Program-made: the position numbers and the translations under genes
Source: Botrytis cinerea B05.10
Taxonomy: Eukaryota; Ascomycota; Leotiomycetes; Helotiales; Sclerotiniaceae
DNA length: 64,000 bases
Reading direction: 5' to 3'
Assembly (NCBI RefSeq): GCF_000143535.2
Contig: NC_037315.1
Span: forward strand, 2,542,001 to 2,606,000
Notes under the pieces: model-generated
The model's input: only the letters and a program-made list of their open reading frames with translations
Database searches by the model: none
Told to the model about the DNA's origin: nothing
Shown: positions 4,244-33,872 of the stretch, piece after piece
Layout: every line of letters begins with the position of its first letter
Numbering within the stretch: position 1 is the stretch's first letter

Positions 4244-7200
4244 TCAAATGCTATTCTTTTCTTCATCTGTGTTTTGATCTTGATCTTGATAATCGTTGAA
4301 CATAGGCTCTTTTAGGAGTTGCAAATACTGACTTTGGTCCAGATCAAAGATATCATGAAGGCTGGACGAAGTCGGAAGATCTTCGCTTGAGGCATGTATT
4401 TGAGCCCGGAGTATATTGTCGCTATTAGTTTGCGTCTCCGGAGCTGTTGACTGGTTTTGTGTCAGTATTGGCGCGTTTATCGCAGTTTCGTGTTCTCCCA
4501 TCATTGATCCAGCAGCCTCCGTTACAGCATCCCGACTAAAGTCATCATTAAGTGAATATTCATAAAAGCCAGAGTCACTGGAAGGCTCCATCATGAAGTA
4601 AGGTAGAGAATCAAAAGGCATCATTTGAGAGTTGTGCCGATCAAGTGGATTTCGCCCAAGAGGCGGTGGTTCATACACTTGGTTTTGAGAAGCCCCAGGG
4701 TGCTGTCGCTCTGACAGTTGAGAAGACTGTCTCGGCATCGGTCTAGTAGTAGTTGTCCCGGAAGATTCGGTCTGATGTCTGTTGATGATGTTTAATATAG
4801 CATTGATTGCTTCTTGGCTTTGAACATGTTGGGAAAGCTCGCTTCTGAGGGTGGAATCCTGAAGTCGCGAAAGAGCACAAGACTCGTCATATAGCCTTCT
4901 GTTTATGTTTTCTTCGTGCCCTGTACTCAGAAATCAGGCAGTGTTTCAATTGTCTGCGTTAAAAAGTCACTTACATGGTGTTGGCATGTTTGCATCGTCG
5001 GTGTTTGGAAACAGTATTTTGTACACCGCTGTCCAATACTGCGCTTTATCCAAGTGGTTCCTCTTCTCTGTTCGCCTTTTGAGCTTATCACGCTGAGAAT
5101 CATCAAATCCATCGGCGTAGTCCCGTTGAAACATTGCGGCACATACTGGAATGTCGTAATGCTCTTGAAGCTCAATCTCGCCATTGCAAATCAAATGACA
5201 CTTTCGACATATTTTTAGAGAATGTGCTTTATACAAATGCTGCCTAGCTCAAAGTTAGCATGCCAAATTAGCGCAAATGAAGAACGTGTCCTACTTTAAT
5301 CTATTCATATCTGGGTAGCCAGGGGGTCCACGGCAAGCTCTGTTTGGTCCGTATCTTCCCGGATCGTGCTTAAAGTAGGGGCAAGCAAGATTTAACCCAA
5401 GATCACTCGTGGTAGGATCTTTTGAAGAAGTGGGCTCTAATGTGGGCTGTTTGTTGGGTCCATCGCCCAAGCCACCACTCCCACCAGAGCCGCCACTTTG
5501 GAAGTCCTGATGTGATCTTTTCTTACGTCCACTGCTGGAGTTTCCAGAGGTACCTTTATTGCAATTACCCGAACTTGATTGCCCGCTGACCTCGGAGTCT
5601 TGCGTACAAGTACGTAGTCTGATTTCTAGATCTCTTAAAATTGAGGTACCAACCCGATCAGGCCAAGAACTAGATTGGGGTGAATCAGGCAATAGGAATG
5701 ATTTCTTGGATGTCCCACCCATCTTGGCGCCATAATCCAACAGAATCTTGGTAGTCGCGTGACGACCCTTGTATATGGCATAGTATAGTGGCGTTTGCTT
5801 CTTAGATATATCGATAATATTCGGGTCGGCACCACAGGAAAGAAGTAGAGATGCAATAGCTGTATGCCCATACCCGGCTGCAAGGTGAAGAGCTGTACAT
5901 CCCCAGTACTGATCTAGAGAGTTAATAGTGGCACGTTTCTCCAATAGCAACTTTACAAGCGACTCATGCCCTCTTGCCGCTGCGATAGAGAGTAAGGAAG
6001 TGCCGGACCAAGAAATTGCTTTTTCCATAAGTATCTCAACTATTTTAACATTGCCTTGTAAAACTGCCCATTCCAGTGGAGAAAGACCATATCGATTGTC
6101 TCGAGTAGTAATGCTTGCTCCTGCTTCCAGGAGAAGTTGAAGTACAGATACATGATTGTTCTCAGCGGCCAGTGATAAAGCAGTACGCCCATACGCGTCT
6201 CTGGTATCAAAGCACTGTACCTCTCCGAGCTCTAGTATAGTTTGAACAAGATTGTAAATTCCAAAAGCAGCGGAGATGTGGAGAGCTGTCCACCCTTCTA
6301 ACATATACTTTGAGGAACTACGTGAGTTTACATGCTTTTGATATTGGGCAATCCAGAATTTCAGAAAGTTTGGTGATCGCGAATTCAAACTTTTGAAGAG
6401 AGGCTGGTATGATACGCCAGGGCGATCAGCTGCTCTTGCGTGTTCAACCCAGTGAACGACGGCATATTGCAAGAAACCGGAGTTGTCAAAATCAAAATTT
6501 ACATCTGATTTGTCGTCGAGAGATCTAAATGCTAAATAAGTGACGCATACTTCAGCAATAGAAATGTGCGTATTATTGAAGTATTTGGCATCAGAATACC
6601 CTAGCTGAGGATTCTCCGAGGCGGCTCTTGATATCAAAAATGTTCGGGCGCTTAGGTGGACAAGGGAAACAATTCCATCTGCTCCCTCAACTTCTAATAG
6701 TCCATGACAGGATGCGATTAAAACTTCAATGCTAACTTGGTATGGCGATAGGGTCTGATCTTGAGTAATATGTCGAGAACTTTGACTTGATACTGTTATT
6801 GAACGTTCATAGACATCCATAGCAACTTTCAGTTCCCTGAGAGAAAATGGCCGTCTGGCAAACACAACCCAACCTAGAAGTCTCAGTACAGCCCTTGACT
6901 CTACTCGAAGTACGTATTCGTAGATCGCGTTATATACATCATCTAAGCTTGTAGGAATTCGCGAAACTGATATTTTAGTGATATTCTCTTCGTGATGTGT
7001 GAAATCTCGTAGATTATGTATGACAAGTTTGACCCAAAGAAAAGTACCCGCTGCTCGTTTTAACAATGTATCGGAGATCTGCTTCTGGTTGGGAAAATCT
7101 GGAAATTGTGTCGACATCTTGAAGGAGACGAATTGCTGTAATTCTGTTTGATTTTCATTCTCTAGAACAATTTTGTGATGTGGTAAACATGAGAACGCTT

Positions 7201-8989
7201 TCTCGTACATCAAGCTAGGCCGACATGTGATAAACAATTTAATTGAATTTTTCAAAGAAATCGAATTTAAAAAATATAGAAGAGACATAATGGAAGATAT
7301 CTCTCCGTCGGGACATTCGTCTAGGGCGTCGATGATAATGTATAATTGATGGGCTTTGGCGGTTGCTTCTAAACACGTTCCCAAGAATTCTTCCGTGAGT
7401 ACGGTTTCAGAAATCCACTCTCCCCAGCTATTGCGGGGCTCCTCGACCTTGTGGTAACAATTTCGCTTTTGGCTAAGCAAAGAAACGAGATCCGACAAGG
7501 AGCTCGTATTTATCGACATTAATTGAAAGATCAAAGAGCGTAGGAGACTACGTGCGGAAGTATCCGGGGACCCGGAATGGAAAAAATGATCGAGGATGAT
7601 CGCAGGCCGGTCTTTCAGAGAGTAATTTTTGAGATCTTTGACAAAGTTGGCAGCAAGTGTTGATTTACCAGCGCCAGGGCTTCCTTGGATCCACAGGACA
7701 GAATTATGGTCACTCGATTGCCATGACCTGAACTCTCGATTTTTCATAAGCCACTTGCCGGATCCAGGCGCTGCAGAATTGGCAATTTGTGACTTTTGTA
7801 TTGCCAGCCAGCGAAGTATTTCTATTAAAGTTATGCCGAATTCAAGAGATCATTCAAAATTGACACACCTTGCTGATGTTTTTGCAGGCTCGGTACACAC
7901 TCTACGCTTGGGCGGAGGATTCTTCTGAGTGTTGCTAATACTCGCTTGAAGTTCGGTTCACCGACGCTTGTGAACTTGCAGATTGTCTTGACAAACTTAT
8001 TAGATAGACGACATGGTACTAGAATAATTGCTTGGAAAGCTCTGAATCTTACTTGATGGTTTGAATGTAACATAACGCTATGTGAGAAATTATTCAACGA
8101 TGATGTACCGTCGACCACCTGTTTAGTTAATCGAAATCTTTTCCTGGACGCCTTCTCCACTTACCAGTCCAAAGTTCGCGACAGGTAACTCCTCAAAAAA
8201 ATAGTCAATGCTGAATTCAGAGGACTGCTGAACGCGAAGATGCTCAAAATCTTCTTGAATTTGCCTTAGCTGCGCAGATGTGTCATCTAGATTGCGCTGA
8301 AATTGAGATTCGCATATGAAATCTTCACGGATTCCCTGACATTTTCTCACACCCGAAAGATACCGAAGGATATTGGAGATACCTTTGTGATCTGTATGAT
8401 AAGGTGTAGCAAAGAATAGTATAGCAGAAGTAGAACGCTTGATGGAGACAAAGTCGGCTCGAGCCCTTGTTGACGCGACAATCAAGGCCTTCTGAACGAC
8501 AAGACCTCCAAGACTATGGGCAACGAATACTAGAGGTCGTGATGGAGCCTAATATTGTTTTGAGTATTAGTGATACAATGACTAGATTTGAAATAGTATG
8601 CAAGTAATGATAAGAGAATCTTTGTAGGTAATTAGAAAGATAGATTATACAACGCGAGATAGAAATAGACTAGCCTCTTGGTGTGGGGCTCGAAAAGCTG
8701 AGAGAGATTCGAGCAAGCTCTCAGCAAGAGTTGAGATTTGTGATCCGTTCGAGTTGACAAGAGAAATCACGTTACTTTGGTAGCCAAAAGTGAGAATCCT
8801 CGCAGTGGGTAAGCTATTAGGAAGAAGGTCATACAGCCAGAGTTTTTCTGGTGTCTTCTCATTCTTCGGAAACCTAGTAGTGGCTGCGCCTTGAAGTCCG
8901 TGAACGAACACTATATCGACGGTACCGTAAGCTTGACCCCCAAATTCGTCATCTGGATGGATTAAGCTCAAGCCTGTAATTTCTGCCAT
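4244..8989 (-). CDS. NLR-like protein: alpha/beta-hydrolase, NACHT, ankyrin repeats, zinc-finger-like C-terminus
   Basis: Seven exons on the minus strand (8989-8651, 8548-8165, 8118-8053, 7995-7869, 7821-5295, 5243-4975, 4920-4244) join in phase to 1,462 residues. Residues 1 to about 300 form an alpha/beta-hydrolase of the SesB/DUF676 type: IVFVHGLQG, a WLYDLLP segment, the nucleophile elbow AHSLGG, and a late LHSNHQ. The NACHT P-loop is GSPGAGKST (about 352-360) and the Walker B region LYIIIDALDE (about 465-474). Ankyrin repeats occupy roughly 800-1010 (TALHISAAFG, TALSLAAENN, TALHLAAGYG). Next comes a Gly/Ser linker and a Cys/His region (CPYFK ... C, HLYKAH, CRKC, C), then a Gln/Ser-rich acidic tail of about 220 residues. 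Known fungal NLRs act as self/non-self sensors in incompatibility; that role here is inference. The 102-bp first intron is the least certain junction. Confidence 0.88.
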
Positions 8990-10115: not shown

Positions 10116-12906
10116 CTAACCAACCACACCTTTCAAGCTCAAACTCTCCAAGAAGCCCCCCAAATCCTCCTTCTTAACCTCCACCACACAATGTTCAAAA
10201 CTGTCAATCCTCACCCTCGCATTCGTCTCCTCTACTACCTCCTGAAAGGCATTTCCGAATTTGTTCCTTCCAAATCCCTTTCCTCTCTCCTGTTCATCTT
10301 CATCTTCGTCTTCTTCCTCTTCTTCTGATTCCGATTCCGAAGATTCTTCTTCGGTTTCGTCGTCTTCATCATCATCTTCTTGACCTCGCTCCGCTCGTGC
10401 TGCTTGTTTTGCCGCACGCTTGTCTTCGCGGATTTTGTCTTTATTTTTCCTCCTCAAAGCTCTTGCCGCTTCTTTTTCTTCCTTCTTCTTCGCCTTTTCC
10501 CTCGCAGCCTTCTTATCACCAAACCCCCATCCACCTATTCCACCCCCTCCACCACCAGTACCAACAACCACATAAACACCCCTGGCTTCGTTCAAACCTG
10601 CCACAACTAACGGGGTACCTCTCCCACCATTACCCAGCTTTCCTTTACTTTCTCTTTCCTGTTCCGCAATTGCTTCACCGATCCAGAGCGCGAGTTTGGT
10701 AAGCGCAGCTGGATGAGTGAAGAGTTGGACATCTGGGCCATCTTTTACTACTGCCATACGGAAGGCACGTAGGTGTTTGATTTGTCGTTTTTCGATTAGG
10801 GAGGTTCCTGTGCGGAGAATTGCGCGGTGGAGATGTTGAGCTATGGGAAGGGCAAGTTTGAGTTCCTCGATTCTGTTTTGGGGGTGTAATTAGTATTTAA
10901 ATCTTGCTTTTTTCATTCGGGAACTATGGAGGAATAGCCGAAACAACAAGGGGAAAACTTACTTCTCGAGGGCATCATAAGCATCCCAAAATCTCCCAAC
11001 CCACTCCTCGCCTTCCAAAGCACCATCTTCATCAGTAGTTTCCTTAGTCTCTCGACTTCGATCCCAAGCACCATTCTCTGGAGCAGTGACTGCCTTCTTC
11101 CCAACCTCCAAGATAGATCCGACTACAACACCAACATCCTGAGCACTAAGTGTGGCCTTCCAACCCCAACTTCTGACGAAACCCCATCCTTCCTTTGAGC
11201 CTCCACGATCTCTTCCATCTGTGTCTGCACTTGGGACAAGATCGTCTAGACCATAAAGTTCCGAGTATTTCAATAGTTTTGTTCGAAGTCCTCTTTTAAG
11301 TTCCATATCCATATGAGTATAACTTTGCTTGCATTGAACAAGACTTACTCCCATCTTTGCCAGTAATTTGTGTAGTCGCTTTCGCCCACTATCTGACCAA
11401 ATGTGCAACCTCGCTGACAAGTATGGAGAATGCAACATGCTATCATATAAACTCCAATGTCTAATAAGAAGAAATTTTGGCTCAGGGGACAGACGAATAC
11501 TTGTATCTGTTGGACTTCGCGCTGTTGTCGGTATAATGCCACTGTTTTCTGGTGGCATATTTCGGTTCGAATTAAAAGCCGAGTCAGAAAGTTCTGGGGG
11601 GTTAAGACGTCGTACTTCATCTCGCAGAAGCTGTCGAGTTCGCGATCCTCGGGAGCCTAACCATCCTGACGGCGATGACTTTTCTGTAGTTACTGCAATT
11701 CCGATTGCAGATCGACCATATAATTCTTGAGAACTGACCCCGACTATTGTCATCCAAAGGAGATCATTATCTTCTCTTCCCAACTCTGATGCTAAGGAAT
11801 ACATCATTGAAGATATGGGTTCGGAATATGATGCACCCAGATTATAGTATGTTTGGAGAACCATTTCATTCTTCCGGCGCAATTTTCGTAATCTTCGCCG
11901 TAACGCTCTCGGGGAGGGTGGTTTCGGGGGTTGTGCTGGTGAAGGAGATACGGACCGCGAATGTGAATCTGAGAATATTGTCGGATCGTTTAGTGATAGA
12001 AGTCCACGTTGAGGCGCACGAGTTGGAAATTCTGGAATTGGACTTGACTAGTATCATTGTTAGCAGGTATAGACTGTTACATCCTAAAATACCTACCGAG
12101 TTGCTTCTTCGCCTCTGCCGTGGTCTATCATCCTCGACGTCAGTATCATCTTCCTCATCCCGATCCGACCAAGACTTTCTCTTTTTGCCTGGCAGCCTAA
12201 CTGGAGATTGATCATTGGCATCACTTTCGCCTTCCGTGTCGCTACCCTCACTATCATCTTCATTGTCTTCCATCTCGGGCATTTCCACCAATGCCAAGTA
12301 TGCGTCCTTCTCCGCTTTCATGTCTTCTTCAATATCCCCATCGTCGAATACAATAATTCCTCCTTTGCCTGGCTTATAATTTCTTGCAATCATGCCACCA
12401 ACTACACCCTTAGGCGGTTCGGATATAATTTCCCCGCCTTCTACTTCATGCGATATCATTGGAAAACCTCCAAAGACATTCCCTAAGTTCCAAGGACGTC
12501 TTGCATCCACGACCCAGACCTCAACGCCACCATAACTAGCCTCGTCTGCCTCCGAATCAAAACCCAACAACGCACCCAGATCAACTAAGCCTCCAACACC
12601 TAAACAAACCACAACACCCCCACTACCTCCATGATTTTCCATCATGGGCTGGATAACATTCTTGCCCGCTTTCTCCAGATCTCCATATCCAGCAATTGGT
12701 TGTATCTTGTGAGGAATATAATCGCGTTTCAGAAGTTGGGTAAGGATTCGACATCCGCATAGGGCGTCAGGTTCGAGAGCAACGAGTATAAGGACTGGCG
12801 GAGATAAAGGATGATGAGTCTTTTGAAGGTGGAGATACAGTGTGGCAAGCTGTGAGCGTGGTAAATACATGTTGGAAGATGCAAAACGCGTCAAATAATG
12901 TGCCAA
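10116..12906 (-). CDS. CDC45: Cdc45 replication initiation factor
   Basis: Three exons (12906-12097, 12047-10963, 10872-10116) join in phase to 883 residues. Cdc45 is the scaffold subunit of the CMG replicative helicase with MCM2-7 and GINS in the nucleus; it has a RecJ/DHH-like fold without nuclease activity. Diagnostic stretches are the N-terminal LPRSQLATLYLHL, VWVVDARRPWNLGNVFG, the central KFLLIRHWSLYDSML, and KMGVSLVQCKQSYTHMDME. The usual acidic linker (MEDNEDDSEG region) follows the first domain. Near the C-terminus is an unusual run of about 95 charged residues: a Gly run, then Lys/Ala/Arg-rich, then nearly all Asp/Glu/Ser. Introns are 49 and 90 bp. The first ATG (12906) begins MAHYLTRF, as expected for the family. 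Confidence 0.95.
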
Positions 12907-13767: not shown

Positions 13768-15554
13768 TCATCCCACTGTCTGCTCCTCTAATGTTCTGCT
13801 GTGCCCATTGCCGTTAAACAATTGAAATTCGGAGTTGGGAACTTCCCCTTTGCTCCTGAGATTGTATATCCGAGGATTTTCTTCCTGCTTCTCCTCTTGT
13901 TTCTTCTTTTCAAATCTCTTACGGAGTTTTCCCATTTTGATTTCATCTTCTTTCAACCATTCTTCGGAGTGACCTTCTACTTTCTGTCCTCCGCTCGACA
14001 CAGCATCTGCGTTGATCCAATCTACCAATTGACGAACATACTCAGGTTCTCGTCCTTCATTTAAAGCATGAAAAACTCTCCCGAACCCCTTTTCTGTTAC
14101 CCTAAGCCTATATTCTTTTCTCATCTCTTCCTCGCGTGGTAAGTATGCTTTGCCAGCGAACACAGCTGCGAGTGCAATGGCTTGGAACTCGAACAAGGAA
14201 AAGGTCGAGACGTAGTATGCTGTACCGACAAAAGCAAGTGTTGGATCTGGTATATAGAATATGTCTTTGTGAAGATTGTGGAGTTGCGTTCCGTCAGTTA
14301 CAAGGACTGTTTCATTTGCTTCGGCTGGGGATATTAGGTCGTTGTGATATGGATGAAGAAACGGATACGAAATATGATACCCTGTGCAAACTATCACTTT
14401 ATCGATATCACTAAGCGTCGTCCCATCTTTCAAATGAGCGATCCCTCGACCTTCACTGCCCGTCTCGAACTCAAAAGACACACATTCTCCGACTCTCTTT
14501 GCGCTTGGAGGTAAAAAGTCAAGTGGAAGATCAAATTGGCCACCTCGAGTGGATTGATAAACTGTCTTGGCAATACCGTTGATCTCCCTAGCAATGTCTG
14601 TCGAGGACACACTCCCCCCGATTAAAAGAACGTTCTGACAAAAGTCAGTCAACGGTAGTGCTATTGGGTGTTATTACTAACCTGGCCTGCAAGCTCTTGG
14701 GGTTTCCTGTAAGCCTTCGAATGCATAACCCTTTCAGGATAACGTTTCCTCCATTCACTCAATCCTTTGATGTCTGGCACTCTGTTGGCGTGATAATGCC
14801 CACTCGCCACAACTACTTTGTCAAATACCTGCCACGAGTCAGTATTCGCTTGCAGATGTTCACTTGACAATTTACCTCTTCTTCTTCCAGGAATTCCACA
14901 TTTCCGTCACGAGTCTTGTTTAAAAGCTTTGATTTCACAATCCATCTCCCATTTACCTTCTTAATCGTTTCGACTTTAGTATTGTACTTGAGAAAACGTT
15001 CTAGGTGAAATCTTTTGGCATAATCGCTCAGATAATCACCAACAACCTTCACATTAACAAAATCACCTGTGCCTTCCTTCCATGGATGGTCTTTCATTTC
15101 TTGGAGCTTAGTTGAGATGTTTGTTGTCAACCCAAAATATGCAGGGCCTGGTGGTGCGTGCTTTAACTTGAGTATTTCTTCCTGGGGGAATTCTGACTGC
15201 AACGTAACATCCTCGCTGTCTGAATCCGCGTCTGAGTAGAGGCCTGCAACCGACGGTAAAACTGATGGATATTTGTATTCAAGCGGTTTTCTTTCATCGT
15301 ATGCCCTAGGTTCTCGTATTAATATCAGTTTTTCCCCCGGTGGCTTCGGAGGGAACTGGGTATAGAAACATAACTCACCAAACGCCCCCAGGTCTTGAAG
15401 ATCGTTCATAGATCGTTACGTCGAGTCCATAATCTATGAGATGTCTCGCAGCCGCAAGTCCACTGACACCCGCACCGATCACAGCAACTCTTTCAAATTT
15501 CAGGCCCATGTTACGTTTGTATGCTTCTAGGTCAAAGTTAAGCCAATTCCACAT
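13768..15554 (-). CDS. Flavin-containing monooxygenase (FMO-type)
   Basis: Four exons (15554-15379, 15305-14876, 14828-14682, 14634-13768) join in phase to 539 residues; introns are 73, 47, 47 and lie at phases 2, 0, 0. The N-terminal FAD-binding Rossmann motif is VIGAGVSG (residues 25-32), followed by ERSSRPGGVW and a YDERKPLE segment. The middle has VVVASGHY and an HSKAY motif at the place of the FMO fingerprint. The second nucleotide-binding site is LIGGSVSSTDIA, and VIVCTGYHISYPF is a typical ATG-like signature. FMOs use NADPH and O2 to oxygenate soft nucleophiles; the substrate is unknown. The ATG at 15554 was chosen because an MWNWLNFDLEAYKRN leader stays in frame and resembles relatives. 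An internal ATG at 15509 is possible. Confidence 0.88.
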
Positions 15555-20534: not shown

Positions 20535-23500
20535 TCAAGCCTGACCAATACCTCCCCCACCATTACCCTTCTTCTTCCCCCTCTTACTTCTCCTCTTCTT
20601 CGGTACTCCTGTATTTACATTCCCACCTGTACTCCCATCCAAATCAAATTCCCCTTCCAAAGGCGTTTGCACTGCGCTACTTCCTTCACTCTCAAACTGA
20701 AGTTCCCTCTCTTCAAGAGGAGTTTGCACCGGACTACTTTCCTCACTCATGAGATCAAATCTACCATGATCAAGCGGCATCACAGCTTCGAGTTGGCTTT
20801 CTTGCAAGTATTGAGGCTGTTTCCCGACCGATCTGTTATCAGCAGGTCGAGGAAGAGAAGTGCCGAAACGGTCTTGATATGTCGGGATACTGAAACGCTC
20901 TTGTTGCGGAGGCGTTGAAGATGAGGATTCACCACTTTCGAATCGACTCAACAGATTTTTCACATTACTACTCCTCTTTCCATTACCTGGTTCTGGAATT
21001 TCCTCAAAAGGCTCTCTACCTGAATGCGTACTCTGTAGACTGAATCTAGATCCTTGCGAAGTCCCTAAAGAACGCACTGGCTCCTCATATGTAGTCTTTG
21101 AATAACCATACTCATTTCCGACCTCAGGTATCCTGCTGGACCTTCCAATAGAACCTGGAATTTTCGTCGGTGAAAGACCAAAATTGAACCCTTGTGAAGA
21201 TCCCAAAGATTTTCCTAATCCAGGCTCATCATGTGCATATCTAGAATAACTGCTCTGTTTTCTCAATTCAGGACTATGGCTCCTACGCATACTATCCGAT
21301 GATCTCTGGCTCGTGATTGGTAGTCGTGATTGTGCGGGAGATCGCATTGGCTCATTGTATAAAGGATATGTAGGCTCAGGACTTTCGCGAATTGTTCCAA
21401 CTCGTTCTGCTCCTCTTATCGGTAAGCCAAGATTTAGACCCTGGGAAACCGATCGGGACTCGTCATATGTAGGGAATGTTTCTGTAGACATCTTCGTAGT
21501 TAAAGCTGTTGGAGGAGTGGGTGGGATGGTATCCTCATGGGTTGTTTGGTCCGTTGGCGTTCTCGGTTGATTCGGTTGAGGCTCAGACTCGTTATAGTGG
21601 ATTTCTTGAGTCGGATGGGACTCTGAGAGGTATTCTTGAGAATAGCTTGAGCTAGAGTATGTAGGCATTGGTCTCAAATACTGGTTGTCATCTTGGTCGT
21701 TGAAGAAAGTTCGTGAATCGTGAGGGGGCTCTTCATAGCTTGAATATCTTGGTTGTGGTATAGATCTACTAAAGCTGGTTCCTTGGTAGGGGTAAGAGCC
21801 CCTTGATTCATAGCGAGAACTCGTTTGTTCCGACTGAATTGGCTCGATATCATCTTCCGAGTCGGAGTAAGTTTGTGTATTTAGAGTAGGCTCTTCATAG
21901 TCGTAGCCATAACCTGTGTACCTTTGCTCCGCTGAAGTTTCTGGCTGACTGAGCTGGGTCTCGTGAGTTGGGGTAGTTTCGGGAACAAAGTGTCTAGCTT
22001 CTAACTCTTGTTCCGGTTCTACTTGCTCGGCAGCCACATGTTGACCTGTGGCTGTCGGGTCAGAAAACTCTTCTCTCTCTTGTCTGTAGTGCCCTGTTGC
22101 GATCATTGGCTCATTTTCTTGGGAATAGATTGATTCGGTATCCTTGAGTTTTAAGTTATCTGTGACTCCGGAAGGAACAATATTCTCTGTTGTGTGCTTG
22201 GTGTCAAACGAAACTGGAACTTCTCTAGAGTTTGGCTCGTCCGTCAACTCTAGCTCATCTTCATCTGGAACATGGAAGCTGTTATTGACACCTTCATTAT
22301 TGACTGGAAAGACATCATCAGACATTTGATGGCTTTCGGGTTCCATGTCATTTTGGGCTGGAAGTTGTTTAATAGCAGGATTTTTCTCTTCCTCTAGGAT
22401 AGATTGCCCTTCTTGAACTGATGGGCCTGGGAGAGGAATCTCGGAAGCGATTTCTTCTTGACTCGGCTCGCTGTCATGATAATTTTCTTCGGTATCTGCA
22501 GCTTCTCCGTGATTAGACGTAGTTGATTGAGCTTCCGCTGCATGCTCTAATTCTTGCAATCTTCCATCGGAAATATCATGTACTTCATCCGGCTCGCTAT
22601 TGTCGATCGTTTCGAATTCAAGACTTCCAGGAACCACAGTATTAGCTTCTAATTCTTTGTGGTCTTCGAAATCTTCTCGGTCAGTTTCAGGCTCTACGGG
22701 GTAGAAATCTCCGTCATCTATGGATTCGAGCTCTTTTAGGTGCTCCTCAGGACTTGGCTCTGTTTCTACAACCTCGAGATGCTCTACTGAAGGACTGCCA
22801 TTCTCTATTTCCTCGTTTCCACTTTCTGGATCCTCTGTGCTTTCCTTAATGGAATCCAACTTCGGAATCGAACTTTCTTCGACAGGGTAATCTTCGAATG
22901 TCATTTCATCTTTTGGATTTTCCTGTTCGGATTCTACGAAAGATTGTTCAGGATTGATTTCTCCCTCCAGATTTTGTCCCTCTGGTGCTATCTCCCTAGG
23001 ATCTGATTCAAATTCAGTTTGGATAGACAAAGATTTGTCTTCCTCGCTGTCCAAAGGAAGTACAACATGGTCACCTAAGTGTGCGCCCTCAAGGTTTTCC
23101 GTCTCGGGCTCCATGTGAGATTCAGAGGGTAGCAATTCCATGTCCGGAATTTTTACTTCTTCTCTAGATAAAGCTTTATCTTGCATAGGTGCACTTTCAT
23201 TGCTCACAACTTCCATCTCAGGTTGCTCGGCTATGGACGGTATTCCAAGATCTATTTTCTCATCTTCGGAAGAGAACACGGAAGGCTTTTCATCTATATT
23301 TCCATCCTCTGTAATCTGATTTTGGCTCTCGTTAAGATCCTCGTAGTTGACCGGAATAGTATCCTCGACGTGATGCAATTTATCTGCAGGTAAAATATTG
23401 GTAGACTCGATGGCGTTGGTTTCTGGTAATATGGGCATGATATGCTCTTCAGAATCGGTAGAGGACACAACATGGCTTTCCAGAGGTTCTTCTGTGCTAG

Positions 23501-26500
23501 TGTCGTTTGAGCGCTCCTCATCAGTAACAGCAAACTTCTGCTCTTCTTCCGGTTCAGTCACTTCTTCCTGCGCATGCTCATTCTCAGTTCGGTCTTCGGG
23601 GATTTCGTGGCTTTCGACCAGTGGCTGTGTATCCGAGACATCAATAGGTTCTTCGACATGATATTCGACCTCCGGCTCCATAGGTTCATCCTCGGAAATT
23701 GTTTCCGTCTCTACCGGAACATTTCTCCTTTCCTCCTCCTCAGCTTCAGCTAATATTTTAGCCATCTCCGCGTTCAAAGCAGCAATTTCCTCACGGGCTT
23801 TGATATCTTCAGGATCTTCATAGATGGCTACCTCTGATGTTGGTTGGCTTTGAGGATTTGAATCTTGACCGCTTGTATCCGCAACCTGTTCATCAATTTC
23901 CATTGGTTGGTCTGCATCTCTGATATCTCTGGAATATTCATGAATTACACTCTCAGAAGTTGATCCGTTTTCAGGAACCGATTCTTCTTGATAATTATCA
24001 AGAATCTCTTTCTCATTTGATAGAGGTTCGTCTCCATGGTCGGTTACGATTTGTCCTTCTTCGCTTGATCCAAACCCATCAGAAATATGTTTGTCCACGA
24101 CATCTGGCTCGGGGGTATTTTCTGTTGATGCATTGTCCTCAATACTTTTATCTTCGTTGGAGAGTTCAAGTTGGCTCTCAATGACTGATTTTTCGACAGG
24201 TACCTCGACAGCTTGTTGCTCTGCTGTTTCAAGAGTTTCATGATCTTCGGTGACCCCTCTAGTCTCATTGCTCAATTCTGGAACAACAGGAATTTGATTC
24301 TCAACCACCGGCTCCTCAACAGTATCTTGCGGCGATGTTTCAGTGATCTGAGCTTCATTATTCACTTGTGGCTCTGTAATTTCCAAACCTGCGGCTTCTG
24401 GCTCACTAAGAGCGGGTTCCATAGACTTCTCTTCATTCTCAGCAGGGATTTGCATTTGATCATCTGACTCAAACGCCGGTATCTCGGATTCAGCATTTAA
24501 AACTGGAGTCTTTTCTCGAGGAACCGTTTGTTCGGTTTCGAGTGGTGTGTTCTCACTCCTAGATACCTGGTTTTCTGGTTCGAAAGTCTCTTCTTCATTT
24601 TCGACAGATCGGGTCAAGTCTTCGAAGTTTTCAGGTTCCTTGACAACAAATTCGCTGTCCTCAGGCTCCTTAGGGGGTTGCTCGTTCTCAACTGAAGGTT
24701 CGACGTAAGTGTTCAACTCGGGAATATGTTCCTCAGTTTCGACAGGTGATTGTGAAATGTTTTTCCCTTGTAAGGTCTCAGAGTCTTCTCTGGGCTCGCT
24801 AGAGATCTCCTCAGTGACAAGTTGATTAACAGGAAGTTCCGCTAGTTTCTCTTCGCTTTCAATTGGATTTTGATCATGAGAGTTTGATTCAGGAACATAT
24901 GTCTCGGTTTCGACAACCGGTTCAGAATCGCTTTCTTCCTGTAAGGTTTGTGAGGGTTTCTCCGCAGATTTTTCAGGTACCTCATCGCTGTGATGTTCCC
25001 CATCTTCCATTTCCAAATCCCTCGCCTCAACTTCAACAGGCTTTTCATCTTGGTCGTCTATCTCCGAAACGGGTACATCGGTTTCAAAAATAGGGCTGGG
25101 ATTACTTTGATCATTAGAGAGCTCTACAGCTTCCTCTGTCTGGTCTGGTGTCTCTTCCTTGCTGGGATACAAAGCTTCTGTTTCCAAATCCTTTGTATCT
25201 ACCTCGGCAGAACCTTCATTTTGATCGTTTGAATCCAAGTGCGGTGTCTCGATCTCCGCAACTGATTCTGAAGACTTATCCTCTTTCGATGGTTCAGCAA
25301 CACTCTCCGCGTTCTCGATAGGAATATCCTCATTGTTAGGCTCTCGATCCTCATTTTTCAGATTTGTTTCTTGGGGATCGATCGGATGTTCAGCCAGTCG
25401 TTCATTCTCGGTTTCTTCATCAACTTTTTGCTCTTCATTGAACGGCTCAATGACTTCAGAATCTGTAGGAATTTCTAAGTCATCCGCGGAAACTTCACCG
25501 CTTGCTTCGGGTACTTGAGTATGACTATCGACATCGTGATCTGGAACAATGGGTATTTCTTCGGTTTCCACTGACGGATCTGCAAAACCAGATACGTTGG
25601 CTGGCTCAGTCTCCGGAACAGGTTCGTTTATTTCCAAAGGTGGAGTCGCCTCCAAGTCCGTCGGTTTGTCTATCAAAACCTCTGGGCTAGCATTTTCGAT
25701 GTTTGTTTCCTCCAAACTTGGCTCATTAGATTCCTTGATTTCGGGCAGCTTTTCTTCTTCGTCTGCAGGAAGTGTATGTTGTAAGTCGGTAGTCAAATTC
25801 ACATCTGACTCCTGTGAAATTGGTTCATCGACAGGTCTTTTAAATATCAGCTTAGGTCATTATTTCAGCATATCAAAAATGCCTTACTTATCTTCTCCGG
25901 CCTGTAGAGCTTCCTCGCTTGGGTTCACATACTCGACTACATTTTCTGGAGCTATGTCTTCTGTTGATCTACTTGTGATATTAGTATCGACGCAATTGCG
26001 TCTGTATCAAATCTATCAATCCAAGACTATCGACTTACTTCTCTTCCTCCACAGCATCCGGCACTATTTCTTCAGTGGATCTTAATTGTGTGTTAGAATT
26101 TATGAGTAGCCTCGACTCTATCCTGAAACAATCAACTTACTTCAAATCATCATCGCCTAGATCTTCAATTTCCTGTACTTTAGCTCTCTCGCCCTCATCA
26201 ACTGCTTCCTCCTCAGACCTATGATTATCGTTTGTTAGCTCAAATGCTCTGATATTACAGTATACATTTAGAAATAACTTTTCTAGGCCTCTTCCAACCA
26301 TCAACAATTGAAATCATACGAAAAGAAACTTACCCTTCCATCGCAACAGCCTCTTCCTCACCAGGTATCTCCTCAACGGCAAGCTCTCTTTCGGGATCCA
26401 ATTCGTCCTTAGACAGTTCTGTGACATCGTCCTCTCCAGGTCTATATCGGCAAGTCTTTAGGTCAATTCCCCTCAATTCTGTTTTGTGAAATTTCAAGAA

Positions 26501-29500
26501 TCATGTTGACTTACATTGGTTCTCCTTCTATTTCTTGTATTTGAGGCGCTTCCTCTTCGGTACTTTGAGGCTTTTAGCACTATACAATGTGAAGGATATC
26601 TTGATTTAACTTACGTATCTTGGACCAAATCCGATTGTTCAACCGAATTTGGCGTGGTAACTTCAATTTCTTGTTCCTTCTCAAGAGCTTCGGGCTCCCG
26701 ATTTTCAATACTTGCTGGAACTTCAATTCCTTGGTTTGGTTCAGACTAAAAAAAGTTATCAGACATATACACAATCATGGCTATATAGGTAGAATTTACG
26801 GAATCTTCGGGGGTTGCTATGGGCTCAGCTTCCCCTTGAGGGATTGTTTCTTCGCCAGGGAGATCTTTTTCAGTATATTGGGATTCGATAGCTGGTGTTT
26901 CTTCCGTGGTTTCCAAGGTCTAGAGATATCGTTAGTTAACGTCAACGCCACGCAATATATGAGTCTTACAGCTGGTTCCGGCTTTTCCTCTGTTGGAATC
27001 AGCTCTTCAACGACAGCCTCCTGCGTTGGAGCCTCCGTTTCGATTGGTGTCGGCTCCTCGGCTGGAAATTCCTTGTCAATCTGAATTGTGGCCAATTAGC
27101 TGCTTGCTTTACGGTAAATTCTTCATTCCACAACATTAACGCGAAGATTAAATTTGTGGTATCTTACAGCTTCTGGCCCCGGTTCCTGGTCTACTGGTGC
27201 AGGGTCCGAATCTTCGTTGACGTCGACCTAGATAAAATGTCAGTTGATATTTCATAAAACATACAGATATCTATCTGGAATTACCGTCTCCTCAGGATCT
27301 GGCAAGATAACTTTCGGTTCTAGCTCTGGCTCTACTAGCGTTTCCTCACTGGCGGTCTTCTCTTCTTCCATCTAAAGTTTGTATTAGTGAAATATTCTAC
27401 TTCGACGAACTCAACAGGGTGTAGGATTGATGATGTACTCACAGACACTTCGGGCTCTAACTGTGCTTCTGGTTCAGGCAGAACTTGTTCTTCGACCTTT
27501 CAAATCATCAATATACTATAAAATCTGGCTTTCCAAAAATTTGAGGCTTACTGGAAGTTCCGGAGTTTGTTCTGTAGACTCTGGAGCTGGATCTTCCACC
27601 GCCTAATTTTCGTGTTAGTATTTCACAATACCCTCACTCATCATTAGCAGCATAACTTACAGGTGCTTCGGGCTCCAATGCTGGTGATTCTTCCTCAATA
27701 ACCTTGTCTTCTTCGACCTGCAGGATCTTATCAGTATTTACCCTTTCGTGAAACATCAAAAGTTTGGGTGACCTACTGGAGCTTCCGGCACTTTCACATC
27801 CCGCTCTACTACATCACTTACCTCGCCATCGTTATCTTCCCCATCATCCACAGCTTTCATGATCCCCGCTCCGGCAATTCCACCCAAAGCAAGTCCGGCG
27901 ATCGTTCCCTTCAACCCATCATGGCTGTCTTTAACCAAGTCGCCATGCTCCCTGATTAAATCCCCAAATTTTGACAGACTTTCCTCGTGTTTATTGGAAT
28001 TTTCGTCTACAAGGTTCCTTAAACCATCGATATCACTTCTCACCTCATTATGTTGTGATCCAGTGTCTTCTTTCAGACCTTCCAATAGACCTGTGTGTGT
28101 GCTTATGACCTCATTGATGCCACGAATAGGAGCAATTGTTTCTTTGATTTCGCTCAAAATTGTCGTGTGTGAAGTATGTGACACGTTTGATGCTGCTGTT
28201 GCGTCCTTGATTTCATTCAAAGTTGTTGTGTGAGATTCATGAGCACCTTTCATCTCTCCCAGAGTAGAATTTTGAGATTCAAGCGTTGTAATGATAGTTG
28301 TGAGCTGGGTGTCTAGTGCACTTGTATCAAGGAATGGTGGTGATGTCGACTCAGACGTATCATCTGGCGGTGACTGTGTTGGATGAATGGATTTCAGATC
28401 TGTCAAAGCGGCGGCGTGAGAAGTGTGAGAGTCATTCGATGCATTGATTGCTTCTTTGAGCTCACTAAGAGTAGTCGTGTGAGAGAGAATTGCGTCATTC
28501 GAGCTGACTGCTGCATCTCGTATCGTTGCTAAGGTACTGGTGTGAGTATTGTGAGATTCATTAGAGGCGTTTATTGCTTGCTTCAATTCAATCAAAGCAG
28601 CAATTTGGGCGGCATGTGCAGTACTCAAGGAGGCTGCTGCATCTCTGATGACTCCTAGTGTAGAAGTATGGGCGTCATGGGATTCGTTTGAAGCATTAGC
28701 TGCATCTCTGATTTCTCCAAGAGCTGCCACATGGGCTGCGTGAGAATCATTTGAGGCACTAGTGGCATCCTTGATCTCACCTAGAGTCGTGATATGCAAG
28801 CCATGTGCTTCCATTCCAGCATTAGTAGTATCCTTGATCTCACCTAAAACCACATTTTGGCCTTCGAGAGTTGCAATAATGGCACTAATCTGAGTCTCCA
28901 ATCCACTCAAATCTACAGCAGCAATCGGTGCTTGGACTACTTCAGCAGTATCAATGGACTTGTTCCTATTCTGTTCGGAGGAAATAGAGTTATTCACTAC
29001 TGTTTGGAGTTCAAGTAGTGATCTATCCAGCTTTTCTTGTGAATCATTGCATGTATGCAACGCAGTAAGTATCTCATCACTGACATCTGATTCCTTGAGG
29101 GTATTGAAAGCTGAAGAATTGCCTTCCTGCAGCTCATGCAATGCTGTCAAAATCTCGTCACTAACATCTGAATTCTTGATTTCTGTGAGTAGATCGGTGT
29201 GGCTATTAAGGGTATCCAAGATCCTAGGTAAAGCATCGTTGGCAATTTCGAATGAATTTGTGGTGTTAGTAGGAATTTTGGATTTAAGTTCTTCCAGAGT
29301 TTCTGTGTGTGCATTCAATGTATTTTTGATAGCTATGATGTGTGGTTCCAGCAAATTGTCTACCACCATTGCATCCATATCATTTTTGGCAAGGGCCTCG
29401 GACTTTATGTCTTGCAGCACAACCATATGAGCATCGAGTGCACTCTTAATCGCCGTAACATGTGGTTCGAATGATTCGAGGCCAATATTATCTCTTGATA

Positions 29501-32204
29501 TTGTAGGCGGAGTGGAATCATTGTTCTTTGATTTGATTTCATCCAAAGCTTCTGTGTGTGAATCTAGCATGCGTGCCAGAGAACTAAAGTGATCATCAAA
29601 TGCTGCTGTGTTCAACTCCGTTTGTCCTGTAGTCGCCGTGCAATCCTTTGCCTTAATTTCTTCCAGTGCTGCAGTGTGTGCTTCCAACATGTTAATGATA
29701 GAACCAAAATGTTTGTCGAGGATTTCAATGGTATTTTCTGCAGGCAGCGAAGCATTGGAAGGACTATCTTTGGACTTGATCTCGTCCAATGCGGCTGTGT
29801 GTGCTGCTAGTATACCTGTGATTGAACCGAAATGTGTATCGAAGGCATCCATGTTGATTGTCGCAGGTACACCACTAGATTGGACATCCTTTGATACAAT
29901 CTCATCTAAAACTGCACGGTGAGAATCCAGAGTCGAAGTAATTGGACTTAAATCAACGTTGTTTGCACTGTCCTTGGCCTTGATATCCTCCAAGGTTGTA
30001 GTATGAGCTTCCAACAATGCAGTTATTGGGCTGAAATCAGCAGCTGTCATATCTTTCGATTTGATTTCATCCAAGCTGGCAGTATGAGCGTCTAGCAATG
30101 CAGTTATTGGACTTAAATCAATACTGTTTGTAGTTTCCTTGGCCTTGATTTCATCTAAGGTTGCAGTATGAGCTTCCAACAAGGCACTTATTGGACTGAA
30201 ATCTGGATTACATCCCGGATCTTTCGACTTGATTTCTTCCAAAGCCACAGTATGTGCTTCAAGCATCGATACGATTGGACCAAAATCAGCAGGTTTTAAA
30301 TCTCTCGATTTGATATCCTCCAATGTTGCGCTGTGAGCTTCTAACAAGGCAGTTATTGGACTAAAATCCGTACTACCTCCTGCATCTATCGATTTAATCT
30401 CATCCAATGCCGCTGTGTGTCTTTCCAAGAGAGTATTAATGGAACCAAAATGGCCATCAAAGGCAGTAGCATCAATCACTCCGGCTCCGGGAGTATCCTT
30501 TGTCTTGATTTCTTCTAGAACAGCAGCGTGCAAGTCCAACTTTTCAATAATAGTTCCCATATCCTTCTCCAAGCCTCCCAAATCAACACTTGCACTTGCA
30601 GTTTCAGTTTCAGAAGGTGGAGTTGGTAGGGCCTTGATATTTTCCAATGCAGCTGCGTGTGAAACATGTGACTCGTTTGATTTTTGAACTTCCGTAAGAA
30701 TTGCTGTGCTTGTTTCTATTAAGCTGCCCATCTTAGTTTCGAAACTTCCTAGATCGATTGCGGTGGTTTGTTCTAGTGGTGGAGTGGAACTTTTGAGACT
30801 TTCTAGAGCAGATGCATGCGAAAGATGCAAGTCGTTCGACTTTTGAACTTCCGCTAATATGACTGCATTTGTATCCGATTCCTTCAAACTCTCGAGCGCA
30901 GCTGTATGTTTCTCATGTGCCTCGTTGGATTTCTGTACTTCTATCAAGATTGTTTGGAGTGTTTCCGCGTCTGCTGATGTGGGAGCCGGTTGAGTTGATA
31001 AATCCGCAAGTGTTGTACTTCTCTCTTTGAGCTCGCCCAAAATTGTGGCATGCGCTTCATGTGACTCGTTTGATTTGTGTATACCAGCCAAAACTTCAGT
31101 GCTATTATCAGCTTCCTTAATCTCCCCTAATATCTCTTTCTGCGCGTCGAGTGTTGACTGTAGAGCATTGATTTGTTCCTTCAATAGTCCCAAGTTATCA
31201 TTATGTGACGAAGTTCCTGTCTCCAAGCTATCCTTCAAGGCTTCTAATTTGGAAGATATGGCTTGAAGAAGCTCAACATCACCCCCACTGCCATTGGAAG
31301 CCACCGCCCTCGTCTCTTGAATCGTCGTTTCTCCAGTCAGATGATCATTGATAGCCTTTACATTTATTCCTAGATCCGGACCAATTCGAGTAATGACTAC
31401 CCTAACATTCTCCTGCAGTTGATCTATTTGCGTTTGTATTACCGAAGTCTTGGTATCATTCTTGTCTGAGCTTTCCTTCAAACTATCCAAGCGTTCGTTC
31501 GATGTCAATAGATTATTTATTTCCGCTATTCCTTCGACCACCTTCCCTAGTTTATGGTTATTCAAGTCCAAAGAGTCCGATATTTCATTTAATTTTCCGG
31601 CTGTGTATGTGAGGCCTCGGTTGAAGAGGGGTCTTGATTCCTGATTGGAAACGGAAACAGGTGTACCAGTTCCAGAGACCGAATTCTCTGATATTGGCAG
31701 TGACCCTTCTTCTGCTATCGGGTGTGAAGTCAGGGCGCCGTGAAAACTAAGTCGTGCTTGGCCTGGAGTCATTGCTCCCTCGTCATCTGCCATTGACTCC
31801 AACTTCAATAAAACATGATCCACGCTGTTGTTGGTTCTCTTCAAGAGTAGCTCATGTTGTAGAACTGCATTGACAACTGGCTCAATTGTATCTAAAGCCG
31901 TTTTGATCTCGGGCTTGAGCAATTTGGCTATATGTGAAGCAAGTCCAGCCTGGAAGACCTCTCCAGAGATAGCTTCATCGATTATCCGTCGGAGGAGTTC
32001 CGGATCTGTTGGACTGCTACCGGAGAAGCTCGCATGTTTAGGACTGGTAGAATCATGAGATTTCCTTCCTTCAAATGATGCCCGTATCCGATGCGATAGG
32101 GGAGGTCGCGAATTGGTCGGCATCCTTCTCGTGCCCTCTCCTCTTGAATTTTCTTTCCTGAGACTACCAGAAGTACCAACAGAAGGTTGAAGATTAACTG
32201 GCAT
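20535..32204 (-). CDS. Giant low-complexity protein (about 3,585 residues): repeat array plus very acidic C-terminal half
   Basis: Fifteen exons on the minus strand: 32204-27777, 27717-27661, 27602-27552, 27496-27443, 27371-27285, 27227-27168, 27080-26970, 26919-26800, 26745-26615, 26562-26515, 26441-26334, 26218-26141, 26080-26039, 25968-25888, 25836-20535. All phases match: phase 0 through exon 8, phase 2 afterwards. Residues 1-1476 (exon 1) have a basic Ser-rich head and a long array of degenerate helical repeats around an AHTAALDEIKSKD core, ending in a glycine-zipper-like stretch IAGLALGGIAGAG (about 1435-1447). Residues about 1477-1819 come from 13 mini-exons rich in Glu/Pro. The last exon is extremely Glu/Asp/Ser/Pro-rich, then Ser/Tyr/Pro-rich (about 2,900 onward), with a basic KKRRSKRGKKKG end. 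It looks like a coiled-coil plus disordered scaffold; no known family is recognised. Splitting it into two genes is possible but not needed. Confidence 0.75.
27840..31150 (-). repeat. Coding tandem-repeat array (degenerate helical repeats)
   Basis: Within exon 1 of the giant gene the protein repeats a unit of about 30 residues whose core is LEAHTATLDEIKAKD and variants (LEDIKSRD, LEEIKSKD, LDEIVSKD), followed toward the C-terminus by a shorter unit of about 21 residues with cores like SHAAHVAALGEIRDA and SHDAHTSTLGVIRDA. The DNA copies have diverged, so the array is old or under selection for pattern rather than sequence. Spacing of Leu, Ile and Ala fits amphipathic helices. Limits are approximate. 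Confidence 0.75.
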
Positions 32205-33872
32205 TGAAAAAATTAAACAAATGGTAAAACGAACGAAATAAACTTAAAGATGAACACTTGGGACGATTGACGTTCAAGAAATAATATTAGAGAGTTGCCT
32301 TACAATTAATCTTACCTTTTGCCCATGTCCCCAGTCCGCATATATGACAATTTGAACACTTGAGATATATAAAACATGGTTGTATAGCACGAATGGTTGT
32401 CAATTCATGCGTAGTTAAACGTTGGACTCAATGTTCAGTGGTTGAAAGGGGGTGAGAGAAGTGAGAGCAAATGATGTGTTGTTTTGGAGTGGAGTCAAAT
32501 GAATGAATGATGTTTCTTGAGGCGCTTTCGCTATGCCCAAGTTGCCTTTGCAGTGCTTTGGTACTTCACCGGGAACTGGGGTGCAGCTCAATGCCGGGCT
32601 TCCCCCCTCGAGCGATCATCCCTTCATCTGATGCCGTACACGTATTACCATTGAGGTTGTGATTAGACGCTGGCCAAAGGTGTTGTTATGAAAAGTTCGG
32701 ATCAAGCAAACTTTAATTGATCAGTGAGAACTGTCAGTCAATACAAGAGCTGTGAGTGGTGTCTAATAGTAGTAGTTCCAAAAATGACCTCGAAATGCTC
32801 AGGTAGACAATTAGGTCTGTGTGTGTGTCTGATGCTGATGGAGAAGAGGGAGGGGTTACATTTGGAGGGGAAATTCCCAACCATTGGCAGCAAAGGCCCA
32901 AAAGACCTAACATCGACACGACAGTTGAGGTGTAAATGTGAAATGACTACGACTTGGGCAGAAAGTAGTACATGTCATTTTAGCTCCCGTTGCCGTTGCC
33001 GTTGTTTGTTGTTCGGCTGGCGAAGGATAAATAAATAAATGACAATCAAGCTCCAACCTTGTTTTGTGCTTCGCTGGAAGCTATATTACAGAGTATGCCT
33101 GCGAAGTATCCATAATTGGGAAAGTGTACATCGTGTCACATCGAGCATGATCGGTTCTCTCATAGGGCGGAAATCTGACACAAGGTTAATAAATTACCTT
33201 TTATACCGTCACGACTGTGTGCTCTGGGAGAGGATCTTGTCTCGAACATGTATGGGATGGTTCAGGGGTCATCGTCTAAACCCAAACGACTAATTGAATT
33301 TAATGCTTCTCTCCCAAAATATCTTTTAAACTTCGTCGACGCCGAGACTTTTGCCTTTGCCATATGCCCTTCGCATTCTGTAAATTTGATGAATACCTGC
33401 AAAGGATTTCTGAAGGGTGGTCTTGGGTAGTAAGACGACGAATATACCCGGATTACAACACAAAACGATATCCAATACTTTGCCGCATTCTCATTGTCAT
33501 GCTCGTATATCATCGGCGTTCATGCTATCATATGACCCTCCTTTCCACCCTTTGTATTCTCCGACACTCTCTTGTGTTCACAGCATGTCAAATTCTGAGA
33601 TGTACATTATTCCACTGCCCCGAATTTCCCTCCTATCCGAAATTCGGTAATATTCTATGCCGATGACCGACCAACTGCATTTCGCTTGCATTTTGGCTGG
33701 ATTTTGGCCTGCCTCGGCAAAACATGGAAAAGCGCGGTATCGGTATAGCTCCCTCTTGACGATCACAAGCTTCATTCACAACATTCCCCTCCAATAAACA
33801 TTCCTTTCGCTGTCAGATCTTCTCACAATCCCTCAAAGTTTCCTTCCTTCCTTACCCTCTCCTCTCCCAGCC
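32205..33872. other. Divergent intergenic region
   Basis: About 1.7 kb between the start of the giant gene (minus) and the carnitine carrier (plus), so it should hold both promoters. It contains a short CCGTTG hexamer run near 32988-33006 and a pyrimidine-rich leader (CCTTCC runs) just before 33873. No gene was seen. Confidence 0.45.

Follow-up and report, generated by a model that had tools for sequence, protein, structure and literature searches.

The DNA window analysed here covers 64,000 nucleotides of Botrytis cinerea B05.10 (NC_037315.1, positions 2,542,001 to 2,606,000) and is part of contig C6. Its minus strand carries, from 8989 to 4244, one gene whose product looks like a fungal NOD-like receptor (NLR) that is extended beyond its ankyrin repeats by a conserved double zinc finger and a long tail. 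Introns were placed by means of a donor scan, and the exons were then joined in phase. The resulting seven exons (8989-8675, 8548-8165, 8118-8053, 7986-7869, 7821-5295, 5243-4975 and 4920-4244) comprise 4,356 bases including the stop codon and encode 1,451 residues; residue numbers given throughout refer to this model, and all features of the gene lie on the minus strand. The order of the encoded parts is shared by ten database relatives, designated P0001-P0010.

Introns 2-6 are of the GT-AG type. For intron 1 (8674-8549) the donor scan listed no candidate, and a GC donor at 8674 was set by hand. An alternative GT donor is located 24 bases further on at 8650; the frame is kept with either donor. 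As the GT donor is the version read by five database models (P0001, P0002, P0003, P0007, P0008), a product of 1,459 residues is at least as likely as one of 1,451. Intron 5 (5244..5294; 51 bp, GT-AG) sits inside zinc finger 1, and its splicing unites the two halves of that finger. A first-pass annotation of the same DNA, which gave no strand, had proposed seven exons in one frame, and in-phase joining agrees with it. It had also named a gene end at the stop near 5291 as the case that would assign the Cys/His exons to another gene; this stop (5293-5291) is a TAG formed by bases 2-4 of the intron 5 donor GTAGGA and thus lies within the intron. Its expectation that a finger split over exons would be missed by open reading frame (ORF) calling holds for the split, although eight of the ten database models nevertheless have the finger whole.

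Hydrolase, NACHT and ankyrin parts

The N-terminus (residues 1-293, exons 1-4, 7873..8989) appears to be of the alpha/beta-hydrolase type. The Pfam family DUF676, a putative serine esterase, matches residues 26-136 with 19.3 bits, slightly below the cut-off of 20.3. The nucleophile motif AHSLGG (residues 115-120; 8521-8504) is kept in all nine relatives that cover this part, although P0005 and P0009 each have a variant that differs by one residue; the model of P0006 starts after the motif. We tentatively assign the hydrolase to the SesB-like class. The catalytic roles of its motifs are likewise assumed, including that of a candidate catalytic His within SNHQTICKF (residues 252-260).

The nucleotide-binding domain (residues 314-495, 7220..7765) is matched by NPHP3_N (E=3e-31) and NACHT (E=1e-7), both past the Pfam cut-off. 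Its Walker A motif GSPGAGKST (residues 341-349; 7684-7658) and Walker B motif LYIIIDALDEC (7345-7313) are kept, with variants, in ten of ten relatives. The post-NACHT region (residues 501-800, 6305..7204), delimited by alignment of the relatives, contains the motif SLVHLSARTFL (residues 680-690) and is presumably a winged helix. It is followed by ankyrin repeats (residues 801-1010, 5675..6304), with an Ank_2 match at E=4.4e-37 and Ank matches in five stretches. By pattern there are six repeats, which have diverged from each other (pairwise identity 6-42%) and are not homogenised. The protein thus combines a NACHT domain bearing Walker A and B with C-terminal repeats (in such proteins ANK, TPR, WD40 or HEAT), as is characteristic of fungal NLRs, which are signal transduction ATPases with numerous domains (STAND).

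The double zinc-finger module and the tail

The first finger (residues 1108-1144, 5222..5383, split by intron 5 at 5294-5244) has the spacing C-X15-C-X14-H-X4-H, and the second (residues 1149-1171, 5141..5209) the spacing C-X2-C-X12-H-X5-C. The Cys/His motifs named in the first-pass annotation were found here, with CPYFK starting at 1108, HLYKAH ending at 1144 and CRKC at 1149-1152. The rest of the module (residues 1172-1226, 4976..5140) contains YWTAVYKILFP and MPTP and forms helices in the predicted structure.

A search with residues 1050-1300, which admitted only proteins of about 800-2,540 residues, yielded the ten relatives: eight from Botrytis/Botryotinia, one from Venustampulla and one from Mollisiaceae. 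All ten possess NPHP3_N, ankyrins and the C-terminus in one chain, and nine of them contain the hydrolase motif. The second half of the finger is found in all ten and the complete finger in eight; its first part is absent from the models of P0007 and P0008. A search among shorter proteins with the C-terminus of P0010 added P0013 from Truncatella angustata and the metagenome proteins P0011 (340 residues) and P0012 (317 residues). The latter two closely match the NLR C-termini; P0012 is a fragment from a record that may be as long as 16,212 bases. A search with P0013 yielded 86 of 106 candidates at E<=0.01, P0013 itself among them; by name these are mostly ascomycetes, plus one Rhizoctonia. Together with the earlier relatives they constitute a family of 98.

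Counted over those rows of the family that have a residue at the respective position (P0001 numbers minus 30), the ligands of finger 1 at 1108, 1124, 1139 and 1144 are kept in 91/91, 93/94, 93/94 and 95/96 rows, and those of finger 2 at 1149, 1152, 1165 and 1171 in 96/96, 96/96, 96/97 and 97/97 rows. The conserved end of the module beyond the fingers reads W..VY.ILFP...P.P, with W1207 in 98/98 members and its F and P each in 97/98. The module encoded in the window has all eight ligands and the W..ILFP..P part that define the double finger of fungal 'C2H2-type' proteins. Because the relatives combine these parts within a single protein and the family hardly varies in its Cys/His spacing, the five-part architecture goes beyond chance. 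The joined frame, the Pfam matches, the relatives and the family thereby uphold the earlier proposal that one gene encodes hydrolase, NACHT and ankyrins together with a zinc-finger-like part, and the added double finger looks real and conserved.

The kinship of the module to known finger families is less clear-cut. The first-pass annotation had suggested comparing the Cys/His part with zinc-finger families: eight ligands arranged as a double finger are indeed present, but Pfam assigned no zinc-finger family at E<=1 to the whole protein, nor to the module scanned alone. Among 14 diverse members scanned against Pfam only weak matches were found, namely zf-C2H2_4 in nine (best 0.0034) and zf_UBZ in two (best 0.002). 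In this analysis the module thus appears to match no Pfam family. A profile of these 14 members run against the PDB had C2H2 proteins on top, mostly via finger 2; the best value of 2.2e-7 belongs to a six-finger design and is summed over its repeats, the best single stretch having an i-Evalue of 2.5. The predicted structure of the module has a mean predicted local distance difference test (pLDDT) score of 84.4, with the block 1172-1226 at 67 at its start and at 81-94 thereafter. Its likeness to C2H2 fingers is weak; most of the 50 best of 94 fold matches are C2H2 finger proteins, and many of these were solved with DNA. The finger segment is basic, with an isoelectric point (pI) of 8.9.

Pfam lists no domain for 72 of the 86 proteins. 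The other 14 include eight with a kinase domain (PF00069; P0051, P0052, P0055, P0056, P0059, P0061, P0063, P0098), two with Zn2Cys6 (PF00172) and four with SH3 (PF00018) and others. A tree was calculated for 89 of the 98 modules, P0007, P0008, P0011, P0012, P0020, P0093, P0096, P0097 and P0098 having been dropped. In this tree the eight NLR fingers group together in one clade (group support 100/100). The seven kinase fingers stand apart from it, in another clade together with two rows that lack a kinase domain. The tree program warned that columns were few and that long branches met, among them P0010 with the other NLRs, so that the NLR clade is likely but not certain. The tree is consistent with a single joining of the module to an NLR, which is also its simplest reading.

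The module is flanked by a basic patch and a tail. The patch KKRS (residues 1061-1064, 5513..5524) resembles a nuclear localization signal and may have a nuclear function; of the 91 members whose sequence extends far enough, 81 have a basic cluster in the 60 residues preceding the finger, compared to 12.2 expected from shuffled sequences. The tail (residues 1227-1451, 4247..4975) has 225 residues, which agrees with the roughly 220 first estimated. It had been described as long and acidic, and with a pI of 4.49 and a charge of -20.5 it is acidic; yet Q, N, S and T (80/224) outnumber D and E (35/224). Within it, SDSGFYE (residues 1341-1347, 4559..4579) is DSGxxS-like, with an E replacing the last S. 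DSGxxS is a known phosphodegron, and the motif may accordingly act as a degron here. DSG[FYW] is found in the tails of 47 of the 98 members, with 0.53 expected by shuffling: in 11 of 12 NLR-type tails (P0007 being without it; P0011 and P0012 were assigned to this group by likeness only) and in 36 of 86 others. An earlier count had given 43 of the 65 proteins with both anchors. The exact DSGxxS occurs in 3/12 NLR-type and 32/86 other tails; Botrytis tails end the motif with E. As the members are related, these counts are not independent.

Tempo of change and possible function

Segment identities were determined from protein models, some of which are without parts. For the six Botrytis/Botryotinia orthologues (P0002-P0006, P0008), identity to the window protein is 84-92% in the finger, 76-82% in the hydrolase, 78-85% in NACHT, 84-87% in the post-NACHT region, 83-86% in the ankyrins and 77-82% in the linker. 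The tail, with 69-76%, is the lowest of the seven segments in each orthologue, and the finger is the highest in five of the six. It is also the top segment, at 48%, in the distant P0010. Two other B. cinerea models, P0001 and P0007, were compared. N58S is the only substitution in 1,451 residues relative to P0001, which otherwise differs by an additional Q in the tail and in its gene model; P0007 differs by N58S, N399H, I543T and its tail end. Judged by these protein models, the protein does not look like a fast-diversifying receptor.

Conservation of the finger and general NLR biology together suggest a mechanism, which we judge about equally likely to be right or wrong: the finger would be a conserved docking platform on a fungal NLR whose NACHT domain would be released by a ligand and whose output would be the hydrolase. 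The C-terminal half would hold the NACHT domain inactive, and ligand binding would allow nucleotide binding and oligomerisation. The clustered hydrolase would then act, probably on lipids, and bring about cell death or a defence response. The stable partner to which the finger module would dock could be either a protein or a nucleic acid, probably in the nucleus. The receptor would thereby watch a conserved cell component, not a variable non-self marker, and the DSG motif may set its turnover. Rather doubtful, in our estimation, is a wider proposal in which the basic patch, the double finger with its helix and the DSG tail would make up a so far undescribed fungal plug-in signalling module. 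NLRs, kinases and transcription-factor-like proteins would each have acquired it independently and would have a conserved partner and a phosphodegron-controlled turnover in common, and this NLR would guard a conserved nuclear component.

Several observations weigh against the docking mechanism. The ankyrins are better conserved than the finger in P0004 (86% and 84%) and in the distant P0009 (54% and 49%). Nuclear placement rests on one short basic patch. DSG[FYW] is missing from the tail in 50 of the 86 non-NLR rows and occurs before the finger in 13 of the 98 members, although those stretches are longer in sum. A profile comparison of NLR-type tails with those of other members gave no significant likeness (E 0.067, versus 0.11 for a reversed control). 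Since the first search admitted proteins of about 800-2,540 residues only, the length of its hits is partly given by construction. Moreover, P0011 and P0012 may be either split predictions, with exons called as genes, or separate C-terminal genes.

An alternative that we consider unlikely is a nucleic-acid sensor, in which the double finger would bind foreign or misplaced DNA or RNA, for example of a mycovirus or transposon, and switch the NLR on. The C2H2 proteins heading the PDB profile matches through finger 2, the weak zf-C2H2_4 matches in nine of 14 members, the basic finger segment and the C2H2 fold matches solved with DNA all fit this idea, but a segment that is the best conserved in five of six orthologues is unlike a fast-evolving recognition surface. 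The same conservation weakens the notion of an integrated decoy, a finger copied from an effector-attacked cellular zinc-finger protein and now serving as bait, which we regard as improbable. The module does occur without NLR parts in many fungi, and PMC12258605 discusses NLR zinc fingers as possible decoys and as possible nucleic-acid binders; in its own genome (42.6 Mb, 18 contigs), however, three single-sequence queries detected no other convincing copy and gave no more than weak matches at E 0.24-0.46. Four loci (L015, L016, L017, L018; G000 C5, C6, C9, C16) have equal scores, an open frame of 1,827 residues and a finger-query match of E 0.24; they are probably copies of a multi-copy element.

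That the gene is a polymorphic heterokaryon-incompatibility gene is very improbable. In the two other B. cinerea models compared, the differences are those few listed above, its ankyrin repeats are not near-identical as in repeat-shuffling incompatibility NLRs, and across Botrytis species the ankyrins are as similar as the remaining segments. The finger being best conserved in five of six orthologues and only one residue being substituted relative to P0001, both this reading and that of a fast-evolving decoy are weakened. Finally, it is hardly credible that two adjacent genes or an annotation chimera are involved, with the Cys/His exons coming from another gene: an in-frame stop does terminate the long ORF at 5291, and metagenome records contain two short C-terminal proteins, P0011 and P0012, but removal of the intron containing the stop joins the halves of a near-invariant finger, and ten relatives are single-protein models, albeit predictions from a search favouring long proteins.

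Genome setting and comparison with known systems

Upstream of the gene, two ORF pieces at 10116-12047 (minus strand) correspond to the replication gene CDC45, and two further pieces at 13768-15415 (minus strand) to an FMO-like monooxygenase. The minus-strand ORFs 20535-25856 (1,773 residues) and 27756-32243 (1,495 residues) have no Pfam domain past the cut-off. No other NLR was found in the ten ORFs scanned of the 40 listed in the window. An exon-wise count gives at least 51 NPHP3_N matches in the genome, and dense NACHT/NPHP3_N matches at G000:C4:255452-405870 suggest an NLR cluster elsewhere.

In PMC4986451 and PMC12258605, fungal SesB-like/NACHT/ANK NLRs are described as having an N-terminal alpha/beta-hydrolase, NACHT and C-terminal ankyrin repeats; the SesB-like label follows class descriptions in PMC4986451 and PMC9815663. 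The protein studied here shares this order, but differs in the double zinc finger and 225-residue tail after the ankyrins and in its diverged repeats. Zinc fingers at fungal NLR C-termini are already known. According to a 2025 survey of Sordariales (PMC12258605), 57 NLRs possess zinc fingers, 52 of them at the C-terminus and 34 of C2H2 type; only 16 fingers adjoin canonical repeats, and these are all treble-clef. Our protein shares the C-terminal position, whereas its C2H2-like pair after ankyrins, to which Pfam is blind in the window protein, is not among the repeat-adjacent fingers given there. That survey used Pfam-A or order-specific profiles. A module that Pfam misses in this protein may escape such profile-based surveys, and extra domains on fungal NLRs are perhaps undercounted.

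P0013, named 'C2H2-type domain-containing', shares the eight ligands and the W/ILFP...PSP part with the window protein, but Pfam lists neither NACHT nor ankyrins for it. Most such 'C2H2-type' fungal proteins have the basic cluster before the finger, and some have the DSG motif. In the finger-bearing fungal kinases, as here, the module sits C-terminally in the company of a signalling domain, with a kinase in place of the NLR and with seven fingers outside the NLR clade (P0098 is not in the tree). As the module is common to a receptor, kinases and uncharacterised proteins, one partner, once found, would be a candidate ligand for several fungal signalling proteins.

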